Assembly (NCBI RefSeq): GCF_000221045.1
Contig: NC_015856.1
Coordinates: 2,176,687-2,240,686, forward strand
Reading direction: 5' to 3'
Length of the DNA stretch: 64,000 nt
Source of the DNA: Collimonas fungivorans Ter331
Lineage (GTDB): Bacteria; Pseudomonadota; Gammaproteobacteria; Burkholderiales; Burkholderiaceae_D
Of this stretch, positions 27,355 to 64,000 are shown piece after piece. The notes under the pieces are model-generated. The model had not been told where the DNA came from. It ran no database searches and saw only the letters and a list, made by a program, of their open reading frames with translations. The stretch's first letter is position 1, and each line of letters opens with the position of its first letter. The translations under genes and the position numbers were made by a program.

Positions 27355-27756
27355 TCAAGGGAAAAAGTGGAAATTCCACATGCTGCTTTGTGTGCCGGCA
27401 CCAGCTGTTGCGCCGGTAGTCGATCCCGAAGTGCCGCCAGCACCCGATGCACCGTTGCCAAAGCCGCCTGCAGCGCTGGTGTTGGTGGATGTCGAGCCGG
27501 TATTCGAAGCTGTGGCGACGCCTGATGGGCCGAACACGGCAGCAGAGTTGGCTCCGCCGACGCTGGTGTTGGTAGTTGTTGCTGCATGGTAGCCGTTGCC
27601 GATGCTGACTGCACCGGAAACGCCGCCGGAAGTCGAGCCGGACGAAGATGTAGCGCCGGCGCTGCCCGACGTTTGACTGCCACCTACGGCACCGGCCATT
27701 GCAGCATAACCACAGAGAACGGAAGCCAAAACTACAAGGGTTGTCTTGCGTAACAT
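27355..27756 (-). CDS. Secreted Gly/Ser-rich low-complexity protein
   Basis: 133 residues from the ATG at 27756, with AAGGAG at ideal spacing. After the signal peptide (to about residue 24, AGA) nearly all residues are Gly, Ser, Thr, Ala or Asn. There is no Cys after the signal, and the C-terminus is aromatic (QSSMWNFHFFP). Such composition with an aromatic tail suggests an extracellular fibre-forming or matrix protein, but nothing in the sequence proves it. It is followed after 97 bp by the Ser-rich gene. Confidence 0.6.
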   Translation of the reverse strand: MLRKTTLVVLASVLCGYAAMAGAVGGSQTSGSAGATSSSGSTSGGVSGAVSIGNGYHAATTTNTSVGGANSAAVFGPSGVATASNTGSTSTNTSAAGGFGNGASGAGGTSGSTTGATAGAGTQSSMWNFHFFP

Positions 27757-28422
27757 TTTGATTCTCCTTAAGGTAGGGGCGTCATTCACCGTGTTGTCTC
27801 GTCTATATACGCCCCGATCAATAGACAAGAATTGCGAAAACTTTTCCTGTTCGGCGCCAGCCGGCGGTGTCTCTTTTCGACAAGCCTGCTTGTGATCAAA
27901 AACTGCGTGAATGGCTTTGATCAACGCGTCGGTGAGAGGTAGTGCTGGTTTGCGTTGATCTGATAATAGGAGTGCAAGTCGAAGTGTTTATGACAAAACC
28001 TTGTCAGCTTCGGACAGCGAAGATGGCCGATATGGCTATTGTTTTTCCGTGCTGCATCATGTGAGCGCTAACAAGAAATGCTAAAAAAATCAGCCCATTC
28101 ACAGGTACGGCAAAGGTCTCTGGCCGATTAGTGGCGTACGGAAAATAAAGCGCCGATGCGTGATGTCCGTTTTTGACAAGACTGAAAATATCTTGTCGTT
28201 GCGCGGCGCCTCGATCGGCGATGGTGAGTCTCTGGTCGCGGCCGGAGCTTTTGGGCGGGCAGGATTGCGCATCGATTTCATGCGCATTTTTTTTGAAATT
28301 TTCCGCTCGCGCAGCGAGAAGTTTTTACGTGAGCGCCTTTAATCGGATATATTGCCGCATGTTAATTTGTGTGCGGGAACCTGCGTTGTCCCTGCCGCCT
28401 AATCCAATTCGAAGAATCCATC
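27757..28422. other. 666-bp region without a supported gene
   Basis: Short frames at 28099-28287 (minus) and 28160-28342 and 28173-28436 (plus) overlap one another. None has a convincing ribosome binding site or family content. The sequence is relatively AT-rich and should hold promoters for the divergent Gly/Ser-rich gene and the EamA gene. I see no repeats or stable long hairpins. Confidence 0.5.
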
Positions 28423-49913: not shown

Positions 49914-50945
49914 CTAATTATCGCCATAACCCTGTGGATTCTCGCTGTGCCAGCGCCAGTGGTCGGCGCACATGTCCGCCAGGCCCTTGCTGGCGCGCCA
50001 GCCGAGCAGTCTTGACGCCTGCGCCGGGTCGGCATAACAGCTGGCGGTATCGGCAGCGCGGCGCGCCCTGATTTCATACGGGATGCGGCGCACGCTGACG
50101 GCTTCGAAAGCATCCAGCATTTCCAGTACGCTATACCCGCGCCCGGTGCCCAGGTTGACGGTGAAGCCGCGCCTGTTGCCGAACAGGTAGCGCAGCGCTG
50201 CGATATGGGCATCCGCCACATCAGTCACATGGATGTAGTCGCGCACCCCGGTGCCGTCGGCGGTGGGGTAATCGCCGCCGAATATCGGCAGCATGGCTTG
50301 TTGTCCCGACGCGACACGCGCCATGGCCGGCAGCAGGTTGTTCGCCATGGTGCGCGACGCTTCGCCCATGATGCCGCTGACATGCGCCCCGACCGGGTTA
50401 AAGTAACGCAACACGCCAATCGCCCAACTGCTGTCCGCGGCGCCCAGATCCGCCAGCACCTGTTCCGCCATCAGTTTCGACTGGCTGTACGGATTGCTGG
50501 CGCGCAGCGCGGCGGTTTCCGCGATCGGCACAGCGGCCGGCGCGCCGTACACCGCCGCCGACGAGCTGAATACGAAATTCCTGACCCCATGCTGCTGCAA
50601 GGCCTGCAGCAGGGTTACCGTGGCGCTGACGTTGTTGTGGAAATAGCGCAGCGGCTGTTGCACCGACTCGTTCATGTTCTTGAGTCCGGCGCAGTGGATG
50701 ACGGCGTCCACGCTATGCGCCTGCAGCAGGCGGTCGAGGGCGGGGCGGTCGCCGAGGTCGATCTGGTGGAAATCGATCTTGCCATCGCCGCAACGTTCCG
50801 CCCGGCGTATCGCCTCCAGCGAACTGTTCGACAGGTTGTCGACGGCAAGCACGGAGTATTTTTCGGACAGTAGTGCGGCGCAGATATGGGAACCTATATA
50901 GCCCGCGGCGCCGGTCACCAGGATTATGTTGTTTTTGATCGTCAA
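49914..50945 (-). CDS. galE: UDP-glucose 4-epimerase
   Basis: 343 residues. The NAD-binding Rossmann motif VTGAAGYIGSH is at the N-terminus, the catalytic YSQSK (Tyr-x3-Lys) motif is in the middle with SSSAAVYG before it, and YFNPVGAH and RDYIHVTDVADAH follow. It interconverts UDP-glucose and UDP-galactose for surface polysaccharide or LPS synthesis. It is divergent from the pigment cluster and close enough to share its promoter region. Confidence 0.94.
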   Translation of the reverse strand: MTIKNNIILVTGAAGYIGSHICAALLSEKYSVLAVDNLSNSSLEAIRRAERCGDGKIDFHQIDLGDRPALDRLLQAHSVDAVIHCAGLKNMNESVQQPLRYFHNNVSATVTLLQALQQHGVRNFVFSSSAAVYGAPAAVPIAETAALRASNPYSQSKLMAEQVLADLGAADSSWAIGVLRYFNPVGAHVSGIMGEASRTMANNLLPAMARVASGQQAMLPIFGGDYPTADGTGVRDYIHVTDVADAHIAALRYLFGNRRGFTVNLGTGRGYSVLEMLDAFEAVSVRRIPYEIRARRAADTASCYADPAQASRLLGWRASKGLADMCADHWRWHSENPQGYGDN

Positions 50946-51225
50946 AGCGACTGTAATTTATTAGAATTGATCGGTTTTAGGCCTTACTTTGTGTATTTTA
51001 ATGCTAAAACATACTGTAACTTACTGTATATTCCGGCCTAAAAACCACCGTGTCGTGAGAGAGTGGCAGTAAAGGTTAAAGATCGTAATACTGTGAGATT
51101 AAGAACGTTTCTCTGCGGCATATACTTTATAATGCCGCCAAAAATCCAGGAATTGCCATCGGCTCAACTCCCAAGATTGCTGGCAGAAAATAAAATAGAT
51201 TTGATGGGTGTTGGAGAATGGTGAG
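50946..51225. promoter_or_regulatory. Divergent AT-rich promoter region between galE and the aryl polyene operon
   Basis: 280 bp, clearly more AT-rich than its flanks. On the + strand TATAAT at 51128-51133 is the best -10 candidate for the pigment operon; the base 17 positions upstream (ACGTTT, 51105-51110) is a poor -35, so an activator may be needed. GGAG at 51213-51216 serves the first gene. Confidence 0.5.
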
Positions 51226-51999
51226 ATGAAACTCGGGGGAGTTCGGTTTTCAATTGTATCTGATGCAGCATGGGCGCCCGGGCTGGATACGGCCGCCGCA
51301 TGGCTGGGCTGGGCGGCGCAGCCCTATGCCATCGAAGGCAGCGGCGATGCAGCCGTTGCGGCCATGCCCGCGATGCTGCGCCGGCGTGCCGGCGCCATGG
51401 GGAAAATGGCGCTGGAAGCGGCTTATCGCTGCCTCGACGGCAAGACCGGCGTGCCAACCGTGTTTTGTTCCCGCCACGGCGAGTGCGCACGCTCGATAGA
51501 GCTGCTGGCCGACCTGGCCCAAGACCAGCCCTTGTCTCCCACTTCTTTCAGCTTGTCGGTCCACAACGCCGCCGCCGGCCTGTTTTCGATCGCGCGCAAG
51601 GACCAGGCCAGCCATACTGCCCTGGCGGCCGGGCACAGCGGCGTCGAGCACGCGGTGATTGAAGCCTGCGGCTTGCTGGCCGACGGTGCGCCGGAGGTGC
51701 TGCTGGTGGTTTATGACTGCCAGTTGCCGGAACTGTTTCAAGAGTTCCAGGATTGCCTGGAGCAGCCTTTTGCCTGGGCCTGGCTGATGTCCGCAGAAAG
51801 CGTCGGATCCGGCCACCGCATGGCGCTGTCGTGGGACGGCGCTGGCCAAGATGAAACGAATGCCATGGCGCAGGAATCCAACAATGGCCGGCAGCCGGGC
51901 GGGCTGGATGTGCTGGCTTTTTACTTGCGCAGCGATCGCGAGCTGGTGCGGAACGCCGATGGGCGCCGCTGGTGCTGGGAGCGTCATGCGCATGATTAA
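51226..51999 (+). CDS. Beta-ketoacyl synthase-like protein (PF13723-type), aryl polyene cluster
   Basis: 257 residues from the ATG at 51226 with GGAG nine bases upstream. The segment PTVFCSRHGECARSIELL ... PLSPTSFSLSVHNAAAGLFSI ... HTALAAGHSGVEHAVIEACGLL matches the short N-terminal ketosynthase-like family found in aryl polyene clusters. The usual Cys-His-His triad of an active ketosynthase is not recognisable. A partner role (chain-length or scaffold subunit) for true ketosynthases encoded beyond the window is inferred. It is the first gene of the operon and overlaps the next. Confidence 0.82.
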   Translation: MKLGGVRFSIVSDAAWAPGLDTAAAWLGWAAQPYAIEGSGDAAVAAMPAMLRRRAGAMGKMALEAAYRCLDGKTGVPTVFCSRHGECARSIELLADLAQDQPLSPTSFSLSVHNAAAGLFSIARKDQASHTALAAGHSGVEHAVIEACGLLADGAPEVLLVVYDCQLPELFQEFQDCLEQPFAWAWLMSAESVGSGHRMALSWDGAGQDETNAMAQESNNGRQPGGLDVLAFYLRSDRELVRNADGRRWCWERHAHD

Positions 52000-52786
52000 A
52001 CACGCCAACCGCTACTGGCGCGTGCTGGCGACCGGTTTCAGCTTCGTGCTGTTCGCGCTCGGCGGCCTGCTGCTGCGGATCTTGGTGTTTCCTGTCTTGA
52101 ACCTGCTGATATGGGAAAGACAACTGCGGGTATTGGTGGCGCGTCGCGTGATCCGCTTGGTGTTTCGCGGTTTTGTCGGGTGCATGCGCTGGCTCGGGGT
52201 GCTGGATTACGATATCCGCGGACTGGAACGGCTGGAGCGGCAAGGCTTGCTGATCCTGGCAAACCACCCGACCTTGATCGACACGGTGTTCCTGATGGCT
52301 TTCGTCAAGCGCGCCGACTGCATTGTCAAAAGGCGGCTCTGGGACAATCCGTTTACGCGCGGACCGATCAGGGCCGCCGGCTATATCAGCAACGAGTACT
52401 GCGGCAACGAGCATGGCGGCGGGCTGATCGAGGATTGCACCCGCTCCTTGCAGCGCGGCAGCAACCTGATCATTTTTCCGGAGGGCACCCGCACCGCGGG
52501 CGACGGTCAGATCAATTTAAAGCGCGGCGCGGCCAACATTGCGGTGCGCAGCCTGTCGAACGTGACGCCGATAGTGATTCGCTGCCTGCCGCCGACCTTG
52601 GGCAAGGGCGTCAAATGGTGGCAGGTGCCGCCGATTGCCGCGCATTTCAGCATTGAAGTAAAAGAAGACATAGATGTCCACGAGTTTCTCGCAAAAGCCG
52701 GTAGCGAAGTGTTGGCAGCCAGGCATCTGACCGCCTATCTGCAAGATTATTTTAGAAAAGAAAGCCAGGGTTATGCAGCAGCTTGA
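51986..52786 (+). CDS. Lysophospholipid-type acyltransferase (PlsC-like)
   Basis: 266 residues from ATG 51986 (or 51992). A hydrophobic N-terminal anchor (VLATGFSFVLFALGGLLLRILVFPVL) is followed by the 1-acylglycerol-3-phosphate acyltransferase motifs: NHPTLID (an H-x4-D motif) and FPEGTRTAGDGQINL. In aryl polyene clusters such enzymes are thought to attach the polyene carboxylic acid to a membrane lipid. It overlaps both neighbours by about 14 bases. Confidence 0.87.
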   Translation: MRMIKHANRYWRVLATGFSFVLFALGGLLLRILVFPVLNLLIWERQLRVLVARRVIRLVFRGFVGCMRWLGVLDYDIRGLERLERQGLLILANHPTLIDTVFLMAFVKRADCIVKRRLWDNPFTRGPIRAAGYISNEYCGNEHGGGLIEDCTRSLQRGSNLIIFPEGTRTAGDGQINLKRGAANIAVRSLSNVTPIVIRCLPPTLGKGVKWWQVPPIAAHFSIEVKEDIDVHEFLAKAGSEVLAARHLTAYLQDYFRKESQGYAAA

Positions 52787-53033
52787 AGAAGAAGTGAAGC
52801 AGGTCATCATCGATGTCCTGCAGTTGGAAGACATGACTCCCGCCGACATCGTCAGCGATGCGCCGTTGTTTGTCGATGGCCTCGGCCTGGATTCGATCGA
52901 TGCGCTGGAACTCGGCGTGGCGATCCAGAAGCGTTACGGCATTTCATTGTCGGCCGATTCGGCCGAGACGCGCAACCATTTTGCTTCGGTACAGACGCTG
53001 GCTGCAATGATCGCCAGCAACAGAAAGAAATGA
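52773..53033 (+). CDS. Acyl carrier protein 1
   Basis: 86 residues. The phosphopantetheine site is GLGLDSIDALELG, with the Ser in DSID. The helices around it follow ACP length and charge. It should carry the growing polyene chain as a thioester after modification by a phosphopantetheinyl transferase (not seen in this window). It overlaps the acyltransferase end by 14 bases. Confidence 0.93.
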   Translation: MQQLEEEVKQVIIDVLQLEDMTPADIVSDAPLFVDGLGLDSIDALELGVAIQKRYGISLSADSAETRNHFASVQTLAAMIASNRKK

Positions 53034-53042
53034 CGGTGTGAC

Positions 53043-53315
53043 ATGACATTGACCAACTCAATGAGCAAGGAAGAAATCTACCTGTGGCTGGTGAACGTGC
53101 TGCATGAAATGTTCGAGATCGACAAGGACCAGGTGACGCCCCAGGCCAACCTGTATACCGACCTCGATATCGACAGCATCGATGCGGTCGACCTGGTGGT
53201 CAAGCTCAAGCAGCTGACCGGCAAACGCCTGCAGCCGGACGTGTTCAAGGCGGTGCGCACGGTGCAGGACGTGGTCGACGCGCTGGCGGCCTTGCTGGCC
53301 GAGGACGAAAAGTAA
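53043..53315 (+). CDS. Acyl carrier protein 2
   Basis: 90 residues with the site DLDIDSIDAVDLVVKLKQ. It is clearly distinct from the first ACP, as in other aryl polyene clusters, which usually carry a pair. A second in-frame ATG at 53061 is possible. It starts nine bases after the first ACP gene ends. Confidence 0.93.
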   Translation: MTLTNSMSKEEIYLWLVNVLHEMFEIDKDQVTPQANLYTDLDIDSIDAVDLVVKLKQLTGKRLQPDVFKAVRTVQDVVDALAALLAEDEK

Positions 53316-53330
53316 GGCCTCAGGGACATC

Positions 53331-53936
53331 GTGCTGAATTTTACCCGCTATATCAGGCGCTTTTTACCCACGGTAGTGAGCGTGCTGCTCACTTTGCTCT
53401 ATCCGCTCGCGATCTGGCTCGGACACGGGCGGGTCGAGCCGCGCCTGCTGGCTTTGCTGCTGGTGCTGGCCGCGGCCAGCCGGCTGCCTGCCCTGAAACT
53501 GAGGCGCGGCAGCCGCTGGTGGCTGGCCGGCGCCTTGCTGCTGGCGGCGCTGGCGATATGGAACAACGCCTTGCTGCCTCTGAAGCTGTATCCGGTGCTG
53601 GTCAATCTCGGCATGCTGGCAGTGTTCGGCTACAGCCTGCATGCGCCGCCATCGGTCATCGAGCGCATGGCGCGCCTGAGCGATCCGGCCTTGCCTGCTT
53701 ATGCGGTTGCCTACACGCGGCGGGTGACGCAGGTGTGGTGCGGTTTTTTTGTCGTCAACGGCGCGCTGGCCTTGCTGACCGCGGTCTGGGCTTCCGCCGC
53801 AGTCTGGTCGCTGTATAACGGCGTGCTGGCTTATGTGCTGATGGGCTGCCTGTTCGCCGGCGAATACCTGGTGCGGATTGTCGTCAGGCGTCGTCATCGC
53901 CGCCTGGAACAGCCGCCGGATGGACAGCATGTCTGA
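53331..53936 (+). CDS. COG4648-like membrane protein
   Basis: 201 residues from a GTG start, mostly hydrophobic with about six membrane segments (VVSVLLTLLYPLAIWLGHGRVEP, LLALLLVLAAASRLPAL, WWLAGALLLAALAIW and others). PLKLYPVLVNLGMLAVFGYSL and ERMARL are conserved in the family. It occurs regularly beside the ligase gene in these clusters; its function is unknown. It overlaps the ligase start by eight bases. Confidence 0.8.
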   Translation: MLNFTRYIRRFLPTVVSVLLTLLYPLAIWLGHGRVEPRLLALLLVLAAASRLPALKLRRGSRWWLAGALLLAALAIWNNALLPLKLYPVLVNLGMLAVFGYSLHAPPSVIERMARLSDPALPAYAVAYTRRVTQVWCGFFVVNGALALLTAVWASAAVWSLYNGVLAYVLMGCLFAGEYLVRIVVRRRHRRLEQPPDGQHV

Positions 53937-55692
53937 TTCGCCTAATCTCCTGACTTTCTTGAGCGCGCCGCGCCAGCACGAGCAGCCGTTTGCATGGCGC
54001 GACGGCAAGCCGCTGAGCCATGCCTGCGTGGCAGCCCAGGTTGCCGCCTGGCGGCGCGTGCTGTCGTCTCAGGCGGGATCGTGTTTCGCCTTGTACTCCA
54101 GCGATAGCGCCACTTTTGCCTGCATCTTGCTGGGCGCGTGGCAAGCCGGCAAGACGGTCTACCTGCCGGGCGACGTGCTGCCCGCTACCTGCGCCAACCT
54201 GGGTAAGCTGGTCGACGGTTACCTGGGCGATTTCCCGCCGCAATATGCGCCGCTGACCGAGGCGCCATTGACTGCTGCCGAGGCGGATGGCGCCAGGCCC
54301 GCATTCAAAGCATTGTCGCCGGATTTCCCCGCGCTGGTGATTTACACCTCGGGCAGCACCGGCGAGCCGCAGGCAGTGCCGAAATTCCTGTCGCAGCTGG
54401 CCGCCGAAGTGGCGTCCCTGGAGCAATTGTTCGGCGGCAGGATGGGCGCTGCCGATATCGTCGCGACGGTTTCGCACCAGCACATCTACGGATTGCTGTT
54501 CAAAGTGCTGTGGCCCCTGACTGCCGGCCGTGTGATCCATGCGCGTCAGCTTGAATACCTGAACGAGTTCCAGCCGCTTAGCGGCAAGCAGATTGTCCTG
54601 GTCTCCAGTCCGGCCCATCTGAAGCGTTTGCCTGCCGCGTTCTCTTCAGATCAGGCTGCGGCGATCCGCGTCATATTTTCATCCGGCGGGCCGTTGCCCT
54701 CCGAAGTTGCCGCAGCAGCCGGGCGGGCGCTGGGGTCGATCCCGATCGAGGTCTACGGCAGTTCCGAAACCGGCGGCGTGGCCTGGCGCCAGCGCGTCGC
54801 CGGCGCGGACGACAGCTGGCAAGCGATGCCGGCGGTTGCCTGGCGCGTCGCCGCCAACGATGAGGTGCTGGAAATCAGCTCGCCCCATTTGCCCGACGCC
54901 GGCTGGCATGCGCTCGCAGACCAGGTGCAAGCCGTCGACCGCCAGCGTTTCCGCCTGAAGGGGCGTGTCGACCGCATCGTCAAGGTTGAAGAAAAACGGA
55001 TTTCCCTGGATGGGCTGGAACGGTACCTGAAGGCGATCACGCTGGTGGCGGATGCGCGCGTAGTGTTGGTAGAGCAGCCGGAATTGCAGCAACGGCAGCG
55101 GATTGCCGCTTTCGTAGTGCTGTCGGCAAGCGGTTCGGAAATGCTTGCGGCGCAGGGCAAGCTGGCGCTGAATCGCCTGCTGCGCGAGGGCATCGCGCAT
55201 GCGGTGGAAGCGATTGCGCTGCCGCGCAGCTGGCGTTACCTGGACGCGCTGCCGGTCAACGCACAAGGCAAGACAACGCGCGCCGACCTGCTGGCGTTGC
55301 TGGAACCGGCCGCTGGCGCCGGCCCCGCTCCTGCTCCGCGCAAACCTGGCGAGCGCCTGCTGGAGCAAGAACCCCAGCGCGTACTGCTAGAGTTGACGGT
55401 GCCGGCCGATCTCCTGTATTTCAACGGTCATTTCGAGGGCGCGCCGATTTTGCCTGGCGTGGTGCAGCTCGACTGGGCGATCAGTTACGGCCGCCGCTAT
55501 TTTGCGTTGGCGCCGCACTTCCTCGGCATGCTCGGCCTGAAATTCCAGCGCGCGATCACGCCGGGCATGGTGGTGCAACTGGAGTTGCTGCATGACCTGC
55601 AAAAAAGCAGCCTGGCCTTTCGCCTGTTCTCGGTTGCGGGACAGCACGCCAGCGGCCGTATCACTTTTGGAGCCGGCCATGCCGCAAGCTGA
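53929..55692 (+). CDS. AMP-dependent acyl ligase fused to a FabZ-like dehydratase
   Basis: 587 residues from the ATG at 53929. Residues about 1-465 form an adenylate-forming domain with YTSGSTGEP (P-loop), YGSSETG, GRVDRIVKVEEKRISLDGLE and the catalytic Lys in NAQGKTTRADL. After a Pro/Ala linker, residues about 485-587 form a hotdog dehydratase-like domain with YFNGHFEGAPILPGV, the FabZ His motif. The ligase should load an aryl starter acid onto an ACP; the dehydratase would act on beta-hydroxyacyl-ACP. An ATG at 53920 is an alternative start. Confidence 0.88.
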   Translation: MSDSPNLLTFLSAPRQHEQPFAWRDGKPLSHACVAAQVAAWRRVLSSQAGSCFALYSSDSATFACILLGAWQAGKTVYLPGDVLPATCANLGKLVDGYLGDFPPQYAPLTEAPLTAAEADGARPAFKALSPDFPALVIYTSGSTGEPQAVPKFLSQLAAEVASLEQLFGGRMGAADIVATVSHQHIYGLLFKVLWPLTAGRVIHARQLEYLNEFQPLSGKQIVLVSSPAHLKRLPAAFSSDQAAAIRVIFSSGGPLPSEVAAAAGRALGSIPIEVYGSSETGGVAWRQRVAGADDSWQAMPAVAWRVAANDEVLEISSPHLPDAGWHALADQVQAVDRQRFRLKGRVDRIVKVEEKRISLDGLERYLKAITLVADARVVLVEQPELQQRQRIAAFVVLSASGSEMLAAQGKLALNRLLREGIAHAVEAIALPRSWRYLDALPVNAQGKTTRADLLALLEPAAGAGPAPAPRKPGERLLEQEPQRVLLELTVPADLLYFNGHFEGAPILPGVVQLDWAISYGRRYFALAPHFLGMLGLKFQRAITPGMVVQLELLHDLQKSSLAFRLFSVAGQHASGRITFGAGHAAS

Positions 55693-56467
55693 TCTGACGG
55701 CTGCGCCGGCGCAATTCAAGCCGTGTGCGGTGATCCCGGTCTATAACCATGAGCATGCCATCGGCTTTGTGCTGTCTGCAGTGCTGGCGCACGATCTGCA
55801 TTGTGTGCTGGTCGACGACGCCAGCTCTGCTTCCTGCGCGGCAGTACTCGACGGGCTGGCAATAGCTCATCCCGAATCGGTTACCTTGTTGCGCCACGCC
55901 GTCAATCGCGGCAAGGGCGGGGCGGTATTGACCGGCCTGCGGCACGCCGCCGCAGCCGGTTACACCCATGCAATGCAGATCGACGCCGACGGCCAGCATT
56001 GCACTGACGATATCCCGCGCTTCCTGCAGCAAGCCGCGGCCCGGCCGCGCAGCCTGGTTACCGGCTATCCGCAATATGACGAGAGCGTGCCGCCGATGCG
56101 CCTGTATGCGCGCTACCTGACGCATGTCTGGGTCTGGATCAATACCTTATCGCTGGATATCAAGGACTCGATGTGCGGATTCCGGGTCTATCCCTTGCCG
56201 TCCCTGATGCGCCTGATACAGCGCAGGAAACTGGGCGAGCGGATGGATTTCGATACCGAAGTGCTGGTGCGCCTGCATTGGGACGGCGTGTCCATCGTCA
56301 ACCTGCCGACCCGGGTTACTTATCCGATGGACGGTGTCTCGCATTTTCGCGCCGGCCTCGACAACCTGCTGATTTCACGTCTCCATGCCACCTTGTTTTT
56401 CGGCATGCTGTGGCGCGCGCCGCGCCTGCTGGGGCGGCGCCTGCGCTTGCTGCGGGGACAACCGTGA
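55679..56467 (+). CDS. Glycosyltransferase family 2
   Basis: 262 residues from the ATG at 55679. The GT-A motifs are PVYNHEHAIGFVLSAVL near the N-terminus, VDDAS, NRGKGGAVLTGL and the DxD-type MQIDADGQH. It resembles dolichol-phosphate-type transferases. In aryl polyene clusters it probably adds a sugar to the lipid anchor. It overlaps the ligase gene by 14 bases and the next gene by four (GTGA). Confidence 0.88.
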   Translation: MPQADLTAAPAQFKPCAVIPVYNHEHAIGFVLSAVLAHDLHCVLVDDASSASCAAVLDGLAIAHPESVTLLRHAVNRGKGGAVLTGLRHAAAAGYTHAMQIDADGQHCTDDIPRFLQQAAARPRSLVTGYPQYDESVPPMRLYARYLTHVWVWINTLSLDIKDSMCGFRVYPLPSLMRLIQRRKLGERMDFDTEVLVRLHWDGVSIVNLPTRVTYPMDGVSHFRAGLDNLLISRLHATLFFGMLWRAPRLLGRRLRLLRGQP

Positions 56468-57426
56468 GCGACAGCCAGCGCCACTGGGCGCAAATCAACG
56501 AAGCCAGCTTTGTGGGCGGCATGCGGCTGTTGTTCGGGATATACCGGATCGCCGGCCGCTGGCCGTTCCGGTTCGCCTTGTATCCGGTGCTGGCCTGGTA
56601 TCTGCTGAGCAAACCGGCGGCGCGGCGCGCTTCCATGGAATATTTGCAACGGCTGTGCGCTTTCGACCCCGCGCTAGCCAGGCTTAACCGGATCCGGCCG
56701 GACTGGCGCGGCGTATTCCGGCATTTTTCCTCTTTTGCCGAAAACATCCTCGACAAGATGCTGTTGTGGGGCGGCTTGTTCAAGACCGCCAACGTGGTCT
56801 CGTTCGGGCGTGAACAGATGCTGGAAAACATCCAGGCGCAGCGCGGCGGCCTGCTGGTTTGCGCGCACCTGGGCAATCTTGAGCTGTGCCGGGTGCTGTC
56901 GCGCCAGCGCCGCCAGCTGCGCATTACGGTGCTGGTGCATACCAGGCACGCCCAGGCGTTCAACCGGCTGCTGGCGAAACTCGATCCGGACAGCCAGCTG
57001 AACCTGATGCAGGTCAGCGAGATGACGCCGGCCACCGCGATGCTGCTGGCCGAGAAAGTAGGGCGCGGCGAATTTGTCGCCATCGCCGGCGACCGCATTC
57101 CGGTGTCGCCCATGCCACGCGTGGCGCAGGCTTCGTTCCTGGGCCGCACCGCAGCCTTCCCGGTCGGCCCTTATGTGCTGGCCAGCTTGCTGCAGTGTCC
57201 GGTCTACCTGCTGTTTTCAATGACAAAAAACGGCCACTCAGAATGTCATTTCGAACTGTTTCGAGAGTCGATTCACTTGCCGCGCAAAAGCCGCGATCAA
57301 GTCCTGCATGAACTGGCCGCCGCCTATGCGGCAAGGCTGGAGTTTTTCTGTCTGAAAGCTCCGCTGCAATGGTTCAATTTTTACGATTTCTGGCATTTAT
57401 CCGGGTACAAAGATGCATCTCGCTGA
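56464..57426 (+). CDS. LpxL/HtrB-like lauroyl-type acyltransferase
   Basis: 320 residues from a GTG at 56464 overlapping the glycosyltransferase stop. The conserved block HWAQINEASFVGGMRLLFGIYRIAGRWPFRFALYPVLAWYL is typical of the cluster-associated acyltransferase. The catalytic motif is CAHLGNLELCR (H-x4-E), followed by GDRIPVS. It should acylate the lipid anchor of the pigment. The frame is open upstream to 56173, but that part shadows the glycosyltransferase gene. Confidence 0.88.
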   Translation: MSDSQRHWAQINEASFVGGMRLLFGIYRIAGRWPFRFALYPVLAWYLLSKPAARRASMEYLQRLCAFDPALARLNRIRPDWRGVFRHFSSFAENILDKMLLWGGLFKTANVVSFGREQMLENIQAQRGGLLVCAHLGNLELCRVLSRQRRQLRITVLVHTRHAQAFNRLLAKLDPDSQLNLMQVSEMTPATAMLLAEKVGRGEFVAIAGDRIPVSPMPRVAQASFLGRTAAFPVGPYVLASLLQCPVYLLFSMTKNGHSECHFELFRESIHLPRKSRDQVLHELAAAYAARLEFFCLKAPLQWFNFYDFWHLSGYKDASR

Positions 57427-59003
57427 ACTGAAAAACCTGTCTGCAGCTACACCGGCGCCGGCGGCGCCGCTGCAACGCACCGTCTGCTTTGACCAGGGCC
57501 GCCTGACGATCGAAGATATTGTCGACCTGGCGTCGGGAGCGGCGCAGGCCAGCTTGTCCGCAGCGCCGGCCTTCCGCGCGGCGATCACGCGCGGCGCCGA
57601 TTTCCTGGACCGCCTGCTGCGCGAAAGACGGCACCATCTACGGCGTGACCACCGGTTACGGCGATTCCTGCACCGTCACCGTGCCAGCCGAACTGATCGC
57701 TGAACTGCCGCATCATTTGTACACCTACCACGGCTGCGGCCTGGGCGAACTGTTCAGCCCGGCGCAGACGCGGGCCATCATGGCGGCGCGCCTGGCCTCG
57801 CTCAGCAAGGGCTATTCCGGCGTCAGCGTCGGCCTGCTGGAACAGATCGCACGTCTCTTGAAAGAGGATCTGCTGCCCTTGATCCCGTCCGAAGGGTCGG
57901 TCGGCGCCAGCGGCGACCTGACGCCGCTTTCCTACCTGGCCGCGGTGCTGTGCGGCGAGCGCGAAGTCTGGCGCGACGGCGTCAAGGTTAGCGCCGCCGA
58001 AGCCTTGGCCGCTGCTGGCATCACGCCGCTGCGCCTGCGGCCGAAAGAGGGGCTGGCGATCATGAACGGCACCGCGGTGATGACAGCCCTGGCTTGCCTG
58101 GCCTACGACCGCGCGCAATACCTGGTGCGCATCGCGACCCGCATCACGGCCATGGCCAGTTTTGCGCTGGACGGCAACGCCCATCACTTCGACGCCGCCT
58201 TGTTCGCGGTCAAGCCGCATGCCGGCCAGCAGCAGGTGGCTGCCTGGCTGCGCCAGGATTTGCCGGTGACCGATGCGCCGCGCAACCAGCAGCGCTTGCA
58301 GGACCGATATTCCATCCGTTGCGCGCCGCATGTCATCGGCGTGCTGGCCGACGCCTTGCCATGGATGCGGGAATCGATCGAAAACGAACTGAACAGCGCC
58401 AACGACAATCCGATCATCGATGCCGAAAATGAAAGGGTGCTGCACGGCGGCCATTTCTACGGCGGCCACATTGCGTTCGCCATGGACAGCATGAAAAACG
58501 CGGTCGCCAATGTCGCCGACCTGCTCGACCGGCAGATGGCCTTGCTGGTCGACAGCCGCTACAACCATGGCTTGCCGGCCAACCTGTCGGGTGCGGAAGG
58601 GCCGCGCGCCAGCATCAACCACGGCTTGAAGGCCCTGCAAATCAGCGCCTCGGCCTGGACTGCCGAAGCGCTCAAGCAGACCATGCCAGCCTCGGTGTTC
58701 TCGCGTTCTACCGAATGCCATAACCAGGACAAGGTCAGCATGGGCACGATTGCCGCCCGCGACTGCTTGCGCGTACTGCAGCTGACCGAGCAGGTGGTGG
58801 CTGCATTGCTGGTCAGCGTGCGCCAGGGCGTCTGGCTGCGCAGCCGGCTGGATGGCGATGCGCAGCCGCAGCAGAATCTGCAGCAGATGATGGAACTGCT
58901 GGCGGCCGATATTGCCGTAATACAGGAGGACCGCATGCTGGAACCCGATTTGCGCCGCCTGCTGGAACGCATACGCCTCCAGCACTGGTCTTTGTACGAG
59001 TAG
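57413..59003 (+). pseudogene. Aromatic amino acid/histidine ammonia-lyase with a one-base frameshift
   Basis: The frame opens at ATG 57413 and runs correctly to codon 71 (57625). One surplus A in the AAA run at 57624-57626 then shifts it. Dropping one A joins it to a frame that ends at 59003 and gives a 529-residue ammonia-lyase of normal length. The repaired protein has DGTIYGVTTGYG, the MIO triad in SVGASGDLTP (Ala-Ser-Gly near 165-167), NSANDNPII and RSTECHNQDKVSMG. It would deaminate an amino acid to an aryl-acrylate starter. The fault may be real, a sequencing error, or recoded. Confidence 0.85.
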
Positions 59004-59006
59004 GCC

Positions 59007-59450
59007 ATGGCTGATTTACATAAGCACTTACATAAGCACCGCTGGTCGGCAGAACTGGAATTGCAGGTGCAGTTCTACGATCTCGATCCGATGCAGATCG
59101 TCTGGCACGGCAATTACGTCAAATACCTGGAAATGGCGCGCTGCGCACTGCTGGACAAGCTGGATTACAACTATCCGGAGATGCAGGCTTCCGGATATAC
59201 CTGGCCGATCATCGACCTGCACCTGCGTTACGCCCATCCGGCGACGTTCGGCCAGCACATCAAGGTGCGCGCCAGCGTCATCGAATGGGAAAACCGGCTG
59301 CGGATCGAATACGTTATCACCGACAGCGCCAGCGGCCGCCGCCTTACCCGCGGCACCACCACGCAGGTGGCGGTGGCGATTGACAGCGGTGAAATGTGTT
59401 TTGCGTCGCCGCCTGTGTTGTTTCAAAAATTAGGAATCGAGCAAGCATGA
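59007..59450 (+). CDS. 4-hydroxybenzoyl-CoA-type hotdog thioesterase
   Basis: 147 residues. The hotdog-thioesterase motif QFYDLDPMQIVWHGNYVKYLEMARCALL holds the catalytic Asp. It would hydrolyse the starter or the finished chain from CoA or ACP. It begins three bases after the ammonia-lyase stop, so translation is coupled. Overlap with the next gene is ATGA. Confidence 0.9.
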   Translation: MADLHKHLHKHRWSAELELQVQFYDLDPMQIVWHGNYVKYLEMARCALLDKLDYNYPEMQASGYTWPIIDLHLRYAHPATFGQHIKVRASVIEWENRLRIEYVITDSASGRRLTRGTTTQVAVAIDSGEMCFASPPVLFQKLGIEQA

Positions 59451-60064
59451 AACGAAACCTTGTCGCTGTTCTTGCGGCCGTCTTTTTAAGCTGCAGCGCC
59501 TGGCCGGCGCTTGCCGCCGCGCCGGTAGAGAAAATCCAGGCCATGCTGGCGCGGCCGCCGGTCTTGTGCGGCCGTTTCGACCAAAGCAAGCAGCTGGTCG
59601 GCATCAAGAAACCGCTGTTGTCGAACGGCCGCTTCTGCGTAGTGAACGGCAAGGGCGTCCTGTGGCGCACCTTGCAGCCGTTCCCCAACACGCTGCGCCT
59701 GAAGCGCGACGAAATCGTGCAGATGCAGGGCGACCGGGTCGCGATGCGCATGGACGCCAAACAGGAACCGGTGGTGAGGATGATCAACAGCGTGCTGTTT
59801 TCGCTATTGGCGGGCGACCTCAGCCAGCTCGACAGCCTGTTCGAACTGGATGGCAGCGTGCAGGGCAACAGCTGGAAGGTGGCGCTGAAAGCGCGCCAGC
59901 CGGCGCTGGCCAAGGCGATCGGCACGCTGGCCCTGAGCGGCGGCGCCTACGTCAAGACGGTGACGATCAGCGAGGCCAGCGGCGACCGCACCGATATCAG
60001 TTTTTCCGAACTGCAAAGCGGCAGCAACGCCATGACGGCGGAAGAAGGGGCTGCATTTGACTGA
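59447..60064 (+). CDS. LolA-like outer membrane lipoprotein carrier protein
   Basis: 205 residues from the ATG at 59447, starting with a signal peptide (to about residue 25, ALAAA). The LolA-like segment LCGRFDQSKQLVGIKKPLLSNGRFCVVNGKGVLWRTLQPFPNTLRL is clear. In these clusters the protein is thought to shuttle the lipid-linked pigment across the periplasm. It contains a Cys pair in the mature part. Confidence 0.88.
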   Translation: MKRNLVAVLAAVFLSCSAWPALAAAPVEKIQAMLARPPVLCGRFDQSKQLVGIKKPLLSNGRFCVVNGKGVLWRTLQPFPNTLRLKRDEIVQMQGDRVAMRMDAKQEPVVRMINSVLFSLLAGDLSQLDSLFELDGSVQGNSWKVALKARQPALAKAIGTLALSGGAYVKTVTISEASGDRTDISFSELQSGSNAMTAEEGAAFD

Positions 60065-62489
60065 TCCAGGCGACGGCCGCCCAGGCTGGGGCAGGCGCAT
60101 GGCGCTGGCGTGGGCCCTGGCGGTCGCCTTGCTGCTGGCGCATAACGGCTACCTGTGGCTGGTCAAAGGCGTGGTGCCGGATACCGACATCATGGCCTTG
60201 CTGCCGGTCGAGCAGCGCGATCCGGTGCTGCAGCAGGCGTTCACGCACATGGTCGACGCCGCCCAGCAGCGGCTGGTGGTGCTGGTCGGCGCCGACGACT
60301 GGGAGCACGCCCGCGCCGCCGCCGATGCTTATAGCGCGGTGCTGGCCATGCAGCCGGCCCTGCTGCAGCGTACGGTCCAGCTGTCGGCGCAGAACCAGCA
60401 AGACTGGCTGGCGCCGTCACAGCAGATGCGGCTCAGCCTGCTGACGCCGGCGCAACAGGCAGCGCTGCGCCAGCAAACGCCCAAATACTGGGTCGATACC
60501 GCCTTGCAGCAGTTGTACAGTCCGTTTTCCGGGCCCAAGCTGGGCGCCTGGCAGGACGATCCGTTCGGCCTGTTCAACGGCTGGGTGCAAGCGCGTGCCC
60601 AGGAAACGCCGGTGCGCCCGCGCGACGGTTATCTGTTTGTGGAAGACCAGGGACGTCCTTATATCGTGCTGCTGCTGAACCTGCGGCAGCCGGCATTCTC
60701 GATGGCGACCCAGCAGGCGCTGCTGCCGCTGCTGGACCAGGCCGGCGCAGCCGCCCGCCAGGCAGTGCCGGCGGTTGAACTGGTCAGCGCCGGCGTGGTG
60801 TTGCATGCCGGCGCCGGCAGCGCCCAGGCCAGCCGGGAAATGTCGACCATAGGCATCGGCTCGCTGCTGGGCGTGATCCTGCTGATGTGGCTGACTTTCC
60901 GTTCCTTGCGGCCGATCGCCATGATCATGCTGTCGATAGGCGTCGGCTGCCTGGCCTCGTTTTCCCTATGCTGGATGATTTTCGGACAAGTGCATTTGCT
61001 GACGCTGGTGTTCGGCGCCAGCCTGATCGGCGTAGCCCAGGATTACGGGATTTATTTCCTGTGCAGCCGGGTCGCCGCCGACCGCGCGCTGGGATCGTGG
61101 CAATTGCTGCGGCGCCTGATGCCGGGCCTGGCGCTGACCCTGGCCGCCGCGGTGATAGGCTATATCGGCCTGGCGCTGACGCCGTTTCCAGGTTTGCAGC
61201 AAATGGCTGTGTTTTCGGTGCTGGGCCTGGTGTTTGCCTGGCTGACGGTGGTTTTCTGGTTTCCGGCGCTGCTGACTGCGCAAACGTTGAAGAACTCCGC
61301 CTTTGCCGGCTGGTTCGGCCAGACCCGGCGTCATTGGCCATTGCTGGGCATGAATCGTGCGTCGGCGATGGCAGTGCTGCTGTTCGGTATTTTTGCCGTG
61401 GCCGGCATGACGCGGCTGACGGTGAACGACGATATCCGTTCTTTGCAGACGCCGCCGAAAGCGCTGCTGGCAGACCAGATCAAGCTGGGAAAACTGCTCG
61501 ACGCGCCGACCCCGGTGCAGTTCTACCTGGTGCGCGGCGCCAGCGCGGAACAGGTGTTGCAGCGCGAGGAAGCACTAAAGCAGCGGCTGGAGCCCTTAGT
61601 TGCCAAACACGTCATCAGCGGTTACCAGGCGATGTCCAACTGGACGCCCTCGATACGGGAACAGGCGGCGAACCGAGCCCTGGTCACGCAGGCCTTGCTT
61701 GCTGCCGACGGTCCGTTGCAGGCGCTGGCGGCGCAACTGGGTGAGGATGCGGGTTGGGTAGCGCAAATGCGCAGCCGGGCCCTGAGCGCGGCGGCCAGCG
61801 CCAACGGCGGCCACGACCTTACTCCGGCTGCATTCCTGAAGAGCGCGGCCAGCGAGCCGTCGCGCTTTCTCTGGCTGGGAGAAATAGAAGGGGCGCAAGG
61901 CCGCGTCCATGCCAGCATAGTCGCGCTGCGCGGGCTGAACAATTACGGCAACCTGCCGCTCCTGAAACAGGCCGCCGGGGAACTGGAGGGCGTGTCATGG
62001 GTCGACAAGGTCAGTGAAATATCTTCGGTGCTGGGCCATTACCGGCAATACATGGGATGGGTGCTGCTAGGTGCATATGCGGCGATCTTCCTGCTGCTGT
62101 TTAGCCGTTATCGCAGCGCAGCCTGGCGCGTGCTGACGCCGCCGGCGGTGGCCAGCATCGCTACCCTGGCCATGCTGGGCTTGCTGGGGCAGCCGTTGCA
62201 ATTGTTTCATGTGCTGGCGCTGATGCTGATCCTGGGGCTGGGCGTCGACTACGGTATTTTTTTGCAAGAACAAAGCATGCAGCGCGATCGCTTCGCCTGG
62301 CTCACGGTCGGATTGTCGGCCGCCAGCGCCTTGTTGTCGTTCGGCTTGCTAGCGTTGTCCGCCACGCCGCCGCTGCATGCATTCGGATTCACGATGCTGA
62401 TCGGAATTGCGGTCGTTTGGCTGGTCGCCCCTTGTTTTAGCCAGGATTCACAACAGGAAAAAGAAGAACAACATGCAAACAAGAGTTGA
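60057..62489 (+). CDS. MMPL/RND-type exporter
   Basis: 810 residues with about 12 membrane helices and two periplasmic loops. Helix motifs such as LLTLVFGASLIGVAQDYGIYFLCSR and the second-half LALMLILGLGVDYGIFLQEQ carry the proton-relay Asp-Tyr pair in each half. The start is TTG at 60057 (AGAAGGGG upstream, overlapping the carrier gene stop by eight bases), with ATG 60099 as an alternative. It should extract or export the polyene lipid at the inner membrane. Confidence 0.9.
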   Translation: MTDPGDGRPGWGRRMALAWALAVALLLAHNGYLWLVKGVVPDTDIMALLPVEQRDPVLQQAFTHMVDAAQQRLVVLVGADDWEHARAAADAYSAVLAMQPALLQRTVQLSAQNQQDWLAPSQQMRLSLLTPAQQAALRQQTPKYWVDTALQQLYSPFSGPKLGAWQDDPFGLFNGWVQARAQETPVRPRDGYLFVEDQGRPYIVLLLNLRQPAFSMATQQALLPLLDQAGAAARQAVPAVELVSAGVVLHAGAGSAQASREMSTIGIGSLLGVILLMWLTFRSLRPIAMIMLSIGVGCLASFSLCWMIFGQVHLLTLVFGASLIGVAQDYGIYFLCSRVAADRALGSWQLLRRLMPGLALTLAAAVIGYIGLALTPFPGLQQMAVFSVLGLVFAWLTVVFWFPALLTAQTLKNSAFAGWFGQTRRHWPLLGMNRASAMAVLLFGIFAVAGMTRLTVNDDIRSLQTPPKALLADQIKLGKLLDAPTPVQFYLVRGASAEQVLQREEALKQRLEPLVAKHVISGYQAMSNWTPSIREQAANRALVTQALLAADGPLQALAAQLGEDAGWVAQMRSRALSAAASANGGHDLTPAAFLKSAASEPSRFLWLGEIEGAQGRVHASIVALRGLNNYGNLPLLKQAAGELEGVSWVDKVSEISSVLGHYRQYMGWVLLGAYAAIFLLLFSRYRSAAWRVLTPPAVASIATLAMLGLLGQPLQLFHVLALMLILGLGVDYGIFLQEQSMQRDRFAWLTVGLSAASALLSFGLLALSATPPLHAFGFTMLIGIAVVWLVAPCFSQDSQQEKEEQHANKS

Positions 62490-63705
62490 ACAGTGTGATG
62501 TATTGATAATCGGCGCCGGTCCAGCAGGTTCGGTGGCGGCAGCGTTGCTGCTGAAGCAAGGACGACGGGTGCTGGTGCTGGAGCGGGAACAGTTTCCACG
62601 TTTTAGCATAGGCGAGAGCCTGCTGCCGCAAAGCATGGAATACCTGCAGCAGGCAGGCATGCTGCAGGCGGTGGTGGAAGCAGGGTTCCAGTACAAGAAC
62701 GGCGCCGCGTTCGTGCGCGGAGACCGCTATACCGACTTCGACTTCCGCGACAAGCACTCCCCCGGCTGGGGCACCACCTACCAGGTGCAGCGCGCCCAGT
62801 TTGACCAGGTGCTGGCCAATGAAGCCGAGCGCCAGGGCGCGCAAGTGCGCTATCAGCATACCGTGACCGCGTTTGACGCCGATGCAGAAAAACCACGGGT
62901 CGCGGTGCGCCATACAGACGGCACGGAATATATCGTGGAAGCGGGTTTTGTGCTGGACGCCAGCGGTTTCGGGCGCGTGCTGTCGCGCCTGCTGCAGCTG
63001 GAGACGCCGTCGAATTTCCCGGTGCGCGGCGCCATTTTCACCCACATCGAAGATGGCATCGATGTGCCCGGTTTCGACCGCAACAAGATCCGGATTACCG
63101 TGCATCCGGAACATTGCGATGTCTGGTACTGGCTGATTCCTTTTGCCGGCGGCCGCTGCTCTATCGGCGTGGTCGCGGAAACCGCGTTCCTGGAGCAGTT
63201 CAAGGGCAGCGAAACCGAACGCCTGCAGACGCTGGTCATGCAAGACCCGGCATCGCGCGCCTTGCTGGAGAATGCGCGCTGGGATACGCCGGCGCGCCAG
63301 ATCGTCGGTTATTCGTCCAACGTCAAGTCCTTGTGGGGCAAGGGTTACGCCTTGCTCGGCAACGCCGGGGAATTCCTGGATCCGGTGTTTTCTTCCGGCG
63401 TCACGATCGCGGTCAAGTCCGCCAGCCTGGCCGCTGCCGCCTTGCAGCGCCAGTTCGCAGGCGAAACCGTGGACTGGGAAAGCGAATATGCGATACCGTT
63501 GAAAAAGGGCGTCGATACTTTCCGCACCTTTGTCGATTCCTGGTATTCGGGCGGTTTCCAGAAAGTCATTTTTTATGAAAAGCAGCAGCCGGAAGTGCGC
63601 CGCATGATCGCCGCCATCCTGGCCGGTTATGCCTGGGACGACAGCAATCCGTATGTAAAGGAAAGCAAACGGCGCCTGAAAACGCTGGAGGAAATATGCA
63701 GCTGA
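62473..63705 (+). CDS. FAD-dependent oxidoreductase (tryptophan-halogenase/geranylgeranyl-reductase-like)
   Basis: 410 residues from the ATG at 62473. The N-terminal FAD motif is VLIIGAGPAGSVAAALLLKQG, and the C-terminal FAD-binding block is GYALLGNAGEFLDPVFSSGVTIA. RFSIGESLLPQSMEYL is typical of the family. The halogenase lysine motif cannot be confirmed, so the reaction (reduction, hydroxylation or halogenation) is open. It overlaps the exporter gene by 17 bases and the next gene by 10. Confidence 0.88.
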   Translation: MQTRVEQCDVLIIGAGPAGSVAAALLLKQGRRVLVLEREQFPRFSIGESLLPQSMEYLQQAGMLQAVVEAGFQYKNGAAFVRGDRYTDFDFRDKHSPGWGTTYQVQRAQFDQVLANEAERQGAQVRYQHTVTAFDADAEKPRVAVRHTDGTEYIVEAGFVLDASGFGRVLSRLLQLETPSNFPVRGAIFTHIEDGIDVPGFDRNKIRITVHPEHCDVWYWLIPFAGGRCSIGVVAETAFLEQFKGSETERLQTLVMQDPASRALLENARWDTPARQIVGYSSNVKSLWGKGYALLGNAGEFLDPVFSSGVTIAVKSASLAAAALQRQFAGETVDWESEYAIPLKKGVDTFRTFVDSWYSGGFQKVIFYEKQQPEVRRMIAAILAGYAWDDSNPYVKESKRRLKTLEEICS

Positions 63706-64000
63706 ACCACCTGGCTGGCCGCTGCGGCTGGCTGCGCACTGGCGCGTTGATCTGCGTGTTGGCTTGCGCGCTTGCAGCCTGTACAACCACGCAGCCGCAA
63801 GCGCCGGCCACTGCATTGGCACGACTCGGGCTGATGCTGGCGCCGGCGTCCTTGGGCGCCAGCATCAGCCTGCAACAGCATTTGACGGTGGAGCGCCAAG
63901 GGCGCATCGACCAGCTCGATGCTGCGGTGGAAGTCGACCAGCAGCAATTCAACATGGTCGGTCTGGCGTTCGGCCAGCGTGTCCTGAGCATGAACTATGA
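63696..64000 (+). CDS. DUF3261-like lipoprotein, truncated by window end
   Basis: The ATG at 63696 opens a frame still open at the end of the window (101 codons seen). The signal peptide has a lipobox (LACALAAC, Cys29). The visible mature part, LGLMLAPASLGASISLQQHLTVERQGRIDQLDAAVEVD, resembles the DUF3261 lipoproteins found after the oxidoreductase in aryl polyene clusters. AGGAAA lies upstream of the ATG within the oxidoreductase gene. The C-terminus lies outside the window. Confidence 0.75.
   Translation, partial: MQLNHLAGRCGWLRTGALICVLACALAACTTTQPQAPATALARLGLMLAPASLGASISLQQHLTVERQGRIDQLDAAVEVDQQQFNMVGLAFGQRVLSMNY

Follow-up and report, generated by a model that had tools for sequence, protein, structure and literature searches.

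A 19-gene aryl polyene-type operon with a frame-broken ammonia-lyase gene in the genome of Collimonas fungivorans Ter331

In this report we analyse a 64,000-nucleotide stretch of Collimonas fungivorans Ter331 DNA (hereafter the window; contig NC_015856.1, positions 2,176,687 to 2,240,686), located in a single-contig genome of 5,186,898 bases. From position 51,226 to the window end lie 14 genes, all on the + strand and mostly overlapping, and this same-strand run totals 19 genes once the DNA past 64,000 is included. Judged by the families and motifs of its products, these 19 genes very probably form a complete operon for an aryl polyene (APE), of a subtype that bears an ammonia-lyase. The ammonia-lyase gene itself is broken in the assembled genome, which could leave the strain without pigment or could be a sequencing error.

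Genes within the window

The run opens with an ApeC-like chain-length factor (51,226-51,999; PF13723, E 1.7e-79), whose best solved match is 6qsp_B and in which no ketosynthase-type Cys motif was found in the region inspected. It is followed by an ApeD-like lysophospholipid-type acyltransferase (51,986-52,786; PF01553, motifs NHPTLID and PEGTR), by two acyl carrier proteins (ACPs) in the ApeE and ApeF positions (52,773-53,033 and 53,043-53,315; both PP-binding, both with DSID), and by a membrane protein assigned to ApeG by position (53,331-53,936), for which Pfam and NCBIfam profile searches gave no match. The next gene encodes an acyl-ACP ligase fused to an ApeI-like dehydratase, i.e. an ApeH-ApeI fusion (53,929-55,692; PF00501 and PF22818), the C-terminus of which has the solved relatives 3esi and 6qsr. 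A family-2 glycosyltransferase (55,679-56,467) and an LpxL-type acyltransferase (56,464-57,426; Lip_A_acyltrans, PF03279) lead up to the aromatic amino-acid ammonia-lyase gene (57,413-59,003; Lyase_aromatic), which occupies a single frame in relatives and is frame-broken near 57,620 here. The window then continues with family matches to a 4HBT thioesterase in the ApeK position (59,007-59,450), a LolA-like periplasmic carrier in the ApeL position (59,447-60,064) and an MMPL/RND-type exporter in the ApeM position (60,057-62,489). A halogenase-like oxidoreductase that depends on flavin adenine dinucleotide (FAD) occupies 62,473-63,705 (Trp_halogenase/FAD), and a DUF3261 LolB-like lipoprotein in the ApeN position (63,696-64,316) crosses the window end. 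Over the full 19-gene run, the gaps between successive genes are -14, -14, 9, 15, -8, -14, -4, -14, 3, -4, -8, -17, -10, 2, -4, -4, -4 and 3 nucleotides (nt).

Upstream, galE (49,914-50,945) is divergent from the operon. The intervening gap (50,946-51,225) has a GC content of 38.9%, compared with 62.9% across 51,226-64,000, and equally AT-rich stretches make up 0.16% of 280-nt windows taken at a step of 20. Two promoter-like matches occur on the + strand in 800 nt, where 0.6 would be expected from shuffled sequence; one lies at about 51,099-51,126, within the gap, and is our candidate promoter, and the second overlaps the galE start.

The original prediction for this DNA had described the overlapping or nearly touching 14-gene run and an AT-rich promoter region divergent from galE, and the open frames, base composition and promoter-like match agree with it on both points. 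The gene identities that it named are likewise those found by Pfam and NCBIfam, with the membrane protein as the one product lacking a match. It had listed an ammonia-lyase gene as part of the set; the family is right, the gene is not an intact open frame, and the break had gone unnoticed.

The cluster past the window end

We read the following 20 kb of the genome, and positions beyond 64,000 are given here in window-equivalent coordinates. Directly after the lipoprotein gene come an ApeO-like ketosynthase (KS; 64,319-65,494; family match, Cys and His motifs), an ApeP-like dehydratase (65,491-65,964; PF22817, above cut-off), a ketoreductase (KR) of the FabG family (65,961-66,725; YxxxK), an ApeR-like KS (66,722-67,966; Cys and His motifs) and a phosphopantetheinyl transferase (PPTase; 67,970-68,680; PPTase motifs). 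Beyond the PPTase lie a phasin gene on the opposite strand and then surE, pcm, nlpD and rpoS.

The locus had been called a partial APE cluster whose completeness was beyond judging, to be refuted if no ketosynthase or ketoreductase gene appeared within about 12 kb. Both kinds of gene are present no more than about 3 kb past the window end, the synthase genes starting directly past 64,000, and the remaining genes found in the adjoining 20 kb rule out a partial cluster. The assignment to the APE class and the lipid-export module have held up, on the strength of the family matches, the 6qsp matches and the correspondence with the Escherichia coli ape genes. As for the genes that were expected downstream, the ketosynthases, the ketoreductase and a stand-alone dehydratase are there, and there is no methyltransferase among the 19 genes.

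Assignment to the aryl polyene class

The hallmark genes of an APE cluster are all found in the operon. The hallmark KS (ApeO) and chain-length factor (ApeC) are both present, and the best solved matches of the two proteins are the two chains of a single entry, 6qsp_A and 6qsp_B, followed by 7f28; we take 6qsp to be the ApeO-ApeC pair of X. doucetiae. The KR is accompanied by dehydratases of the ApeP type (PF22817) and the ApeI type (PF22818), both Pfam matches lying above cut-off. The ligase and the two ACPs are present, with an aryl acid as the predicted substrate of the ligase, as is the export set of LolA, MMPL/RND exporter and DUF3261 lipoprotein. The motifs are in place throughout (DSID in both ACPs, Cys and His in both KSs, YxxxK in the KR and the PPTase motifs), and we assume that they carry their usual catalytic meaning. 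According to the sections of PMC8358021 used here, ApeO-ApeC is able to build the fully elongated polyene, with ApeR being complementary.

To place the operon among its relatives, we retrieved named lyase loci, taking the best 80 among 588 confirmed stretches. All 17 core genes are present in 61 of these 80, and their order is identical in 61 of 61; in the other 19, at least one core gene is missing from the stretch, partly owing to contig ends. Within the genus, an O-type KS was found in 14 of 15 Collimonas genomes, this one included. The remaining genome, G001, is the sole one of the 15 with no match to either the lyase or the ApeO-type ketosynthase. At 1.7 Mb and 99% completeness, G001 has about one-third of the usual genome size and looks reduced.

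Judged from these genes, the operon is of an ordinary, widespread and already known APE type, and its subtype often carries a flavin halogenase-like enzyme. A literature search combining ‘aryl polyene’ with ‘Collimonas’ gave no paper on Collimonas by title. The main text of the Collimonas genomes paper (PMC4690342) has no occurrence of ‘polyene’, ‘arylpolyene’ or ‘pigment’, and the pigment treated in PMC4911057 is, in the portion of that paper covered, a purple one.

The frame break in the ammonia-lyase gene

In this genome the lyase gene does not form a single intact frame. The first 70 or so codons, starting at 57,413, use one reading frame; the downstream part, which reaches 59,003, uses a different one. 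Both pieces align with relatives, and the picture is the same against all five genomes compared (G003, G004, G008, G009 and G012). The gene is in a single frame in 13 of the 14 other genus genomes, G001 being the fourteenth, without a match; the between-stop length of the lyase frame is 527-550 residues in the 13 relatives versus 498 here. A scripted check of 100 loci, in which some genomes are included twice, gave 96 readable and 4 unreadable loci: 94 continue in frame, and the other two are a locus truncated at a contig end and the present genome. The genus-genome and named-locus sets overlap, e.g. the lyases of G010 and of L024 (Collimonas antrihumi) share one contig position.

Both pieces of the gene carry the mark of selection. 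In G003, the nearest relative, the lyase is 99% identical; relative to it, 4 nonsynonymous and 48 synonymous changes fall in the main piece (ratio of nonsynonymous to synonymous rates, dN/dS, 0.025) and 2 and 6 in the N-terminal piece (dN/dS 0.119). The main-piece value is the lowest of 15 gene pieces, save one ACP with zero amino-acid changes, in a G003 stretch that stops short of the operon's last five genes. Against G012, the main piece has a dN/dS of 0.047, and only one ACP (0.029) and the ApeR-like KS (0.043) lie lower. In the G008 comparison, the row for the ApeR-like KS is a wrong match at the stretch end. The low lyase dN/dS indicates that selection acted on the gene up to the very recent past and rules out an old pseudogene. 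Since there is no sign of relaxed selection, the break is either very recent or an assembly error.

We give an even chance to a sequencing or assembly error, in which case the living strain would have an intact lyase and pigment as in its relatives. The intact selection on both pieces favours this explanation, and so does the state of the assembly elsewhere. When 283 kb of this genome were screened for breaks against G012, 10 rows (9 distinct genes) were flagged among 163 matched genes, the lyase among them; the reverse direction gave 10 rows among 161. We inspected flags by reading frame for all 9 forward-direction genes, plus three and nine places in the window. Among the 9 genes, three look cleanly split, namely the lyase and two that lie upstream of the window; three others upstream are doubtful, and three in the window are full-length. 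The two upstream genes that look split lie near genome positions 2,031,100-2,033,000 and 2,116,100-2,117,100, each apparently across two frames relative to G012; isolated breaks therefore occur elsewhere in the assembly. Weighing against an error, the genome is a single contig, and of the window flags inspected none but the lyase turned out to be a cleanly broken coding gene, with one place, 27,746-28,061, being ambiguous.

A real and recent break has, in our estimate, a slightly less than even chance, and the inspection of the flagged genes did not shift the balance. The dedicated supply of aryl starter would then have been lost, and the pigment would be on its way out or be made from 4-hydroxybenzoate. 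It fits this explanation that the break is seen in this genome alone, set against the in-frame genes of the genus relatives and readable loci counted above, and that a UbiC-family gene for 4-hydroxybenzoate is present in the genome. In the sections of PMC8253772 consulted, 4-hydroxybenzoate is the starter given for ApeH, which uses it in vitro in X. doucetiae and is predicted to do so in E. coli. Against it, the lyase carries no further disabling change, nor any sign of relaxed selection.

We regard programmed frameshifting, by which both frames would be joined into a full lyase, as scarcely credible. Although both frames are conserved, all 94 readable full-context relatives use one frame, with no conserved shift, and no canonical slippery site was spotted at the break when it was looked for by eye rather than computed.

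Family, substrate and distribution of the lyase

The downstream part of the lyase matches PF00221 (Lyase_aromatic) with an E-value of 2.7e-152. In the alignment, the Ala-Ser-Gly of the 4-methylideneimidazole-5-one (MIO) group is kept, and a His stands at the ‘SH’ position that the solved tyrosine aminomutase 2qve shares with the genome's own paralogue L118. At the site where L118 reads NQED, the lyase reads NQDK. A kept SH-type His without NQED would, on our understanding of these motifs, point to tyrosine and not to histidine or phenylalanine. Where relatives have an intact gene, the enzyme most likely acts on an aromatic amino acid, with tyrosine as the probable substrate, and yields an arylacrylate such as p-coumarate.

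We also considered a gene of histidine catabolism. This was rejected: the separate paralogue L118, near 2,846,000 in the genome, is presumably HutH-like by its motifs, and the lyase differs from it at the NQED site. The genome holds two more, nearly identical genes of the ammonia-lyase family, distinct from L118, near 3,565,000 (L119, 543 residues) and near 4,033,000 (L120, 542 residues).

When 185 genomes from across the class were sampled, this one included, the chain-length-factor family was found in 39 and the lyase, at a threshold of E up to 1e-150, in 9, all of them within those 39. In 7 of the 9, the two genes are no more than 10 kb apart on one contig, and in the other 2 they lie on different draft contigs; the remaining 30 of the 39 genomes have no such lyase at this threshold. 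Among the fetched loci, those of Massilia aurea (L051) and Xanthomonas bonasiae (L078) hold close relatives of the Collimonas lyase (80% and 70%, respectively), and in L078 ligase-like and ACP-like matches occur near the lyase. Literature searches turned up no item with a title or opening abstract lines on a role of ammonia-lyases in APE clusters, and the word ‘ammonia’ was not found in the part of PMC9966250 covered.

The halogenase-like enzyme

The FAD-dependent oxidoreductase has the motifs GxGxxG (as GAGPAG), WxWxIP (WYWLIP) and FxxPxxSxG (FLDPVFSSG) and the catalytic Lys (in GFQYKNG), which together we take to be the signature of a flavin-dependent halogenase. All 52 orthologues aligned over >300 residues retain the motif residues, 13 of them with the variant GAGPSG. 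The Lys of GFQYKNG has a Lys opposite it in 3e1t, 5bul and 5bva, all deposited as halogenases, and also in 3nix. Halogenation by this operon's enzyme is plausible.

The gene is present in 53 of the 80 fetched loci. At 69 loci both of its neighbours were found, and 50 of these have the gene while 19 lack it; among the 19, the neighbours lie within 130 nt of each other in 14 and are separated by about 1.1-1.2 kb of other DNA in 5. These five (L055, L057, L091, L094 and L098) have no detected match in the DNA between the MMPL and DUF3261 genes, which could encode a different tailoring enzyme.

Proposed pathway and its implications

In relatives with an intact lyase, the enzyme would produce the arylacrylate from an aromatic amino acid, with tyrosine the probable one, and the ligase domain would load the aryl acid onto an ACP. 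Elongation with malonyl units would fall to the ApeO/ApeC-like pair and the ApeR-like KS, and the KR and two dehydratases would form the conjugated polyene. The thioesterase, acyltransferases and glycosyltransferase may release the polyene and join it to a lipid, which the LolA carrier, MMPL pump and DUF3261 lipoprotein would carry to the outer membrane; the predicted product is yellow and membrane-bound. Halogenation of the ring or of the chain may be the role of the halogenase-like FAD enzyme. In the strain as assembled, the broken lyase frame predicts a dedicated aryl starter supply that is either lost or dependent on UbiC-derived 4-hydroxybenzoate or scavenged cinnamates.

Several points weigh against this reading of the operon. 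The chain-length factor was found in 71 of the 80 fetched loci, some of the other 9 being short or at a contig edge, and L051 and L078 have no ape-like cluster over 21 kb. The assignment of the lyase substrate draws on a few residues whose meaning is assumed. The best solved match of the halogenase-like enzyme is 3nix, deposited as ‘flavoprotein/dehydrogenase’, with the halogenase entries ranking next, and halogenase-like motifs do not prove halogenation.

A broader proposal, which we put forward tentatively and consider rather unlikely, is that lyase-made arylacrylate, rather than chorismate-derived hydroxybenzoate, is the starter in a widespread APE subtype of Oxalobacteraceae, Xanthomonadaceae, marine gammaproteobacteria and myxobacteria, with the sequenced Collimonas strain as a natural lyase-null. 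If so, the strain would reveal the product of the remaining operon genes when the lyase is missing. In the literature passages covered, APE and xanthomonadin starters are explained by 4- or 3-hydroxybenzoate, yet the lyase accompanies the chain-length factor in the 9 genomes described above, which is a testable gap. Should the break be real, the strain offers a ready natural test of the lyase starter route; should it not be, the result is that a single-contig genome sequence needs correcting.

Comparison with known systems

In flexirubin biosynthesis, an ammonia-lyase provides the aryl starter, and the Collimonas operon shares such a gene with flexirubin clusters that carry the tyrosine ammonia-lyase FlxA (NCBIfam NF053541). 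A flexirubin/dialkylresorcinol cluster in place of a plain APE cluster would be in keeping with the NCBIfam matches to FlxA, LolA2_flexi and FlxB. All three, however, fall below their curated cut-offs (317.8 bits for FlxA versus a cut-off of 700), and the operon lacks dialkylresorcinol genes: no match to an enzyme of that type was found among the 19 genes and the neighbours examined, the stretch to which the search was limited. We therefore think a flexirubin cluster very unlikely and keep to the APE assignment.

With the arcuflavin clusters of Azoarcus BH72, as described in the parts of PMC3949708 used, this APE operon has in common the halogenase, ligase, ACP, lolA, exporter and acyltransferase genes. 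The arcuflavin system differs in having two loci, a chorismatase starter and a dialkylresorcinol hybrid, and the word ‘ammonia’ is absent from the main text of that paper.

The xanthomonadin clusters of Xanthomonas and Lysobacter, in the sections of PMC3691225 covered, share with Collimonas a type II polyketide synthase with an unusual pair of KS and chain-length factor. A halogenase gene is shared with Xanthomonas, being present in two Xanthomonas xanthomonadin clusters and not in the Lysobacter cluster. For the starter, the xanthomonadin clusters have a XanB2-type enzyme and 3-hydroxybenzoate, whereas Collimonas has the ammonia-lyase, with no XanB2-like gene recognised in the operon.

The E. 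coli CFT073 ape cluster, according to the sections of PMC8253772 consulted, differs in several respects. No counterpart of the E. coli ApeA lipoprotein or ApeB methyltransferase was recognised among the 19 Collimonas genes searched, the H and I functions are fused in Collimonas, and a glycosyltransferase and an acyltransferase stand in the place of J. The ammonia-lyase, the halogenase-like enzyme and the operon's own PPTase are extras in Collimonas, the E. coli cluster being without a PPTase. For C to F and H to R, and for G by position only, both clusters have equivalent genes, in a similar order.

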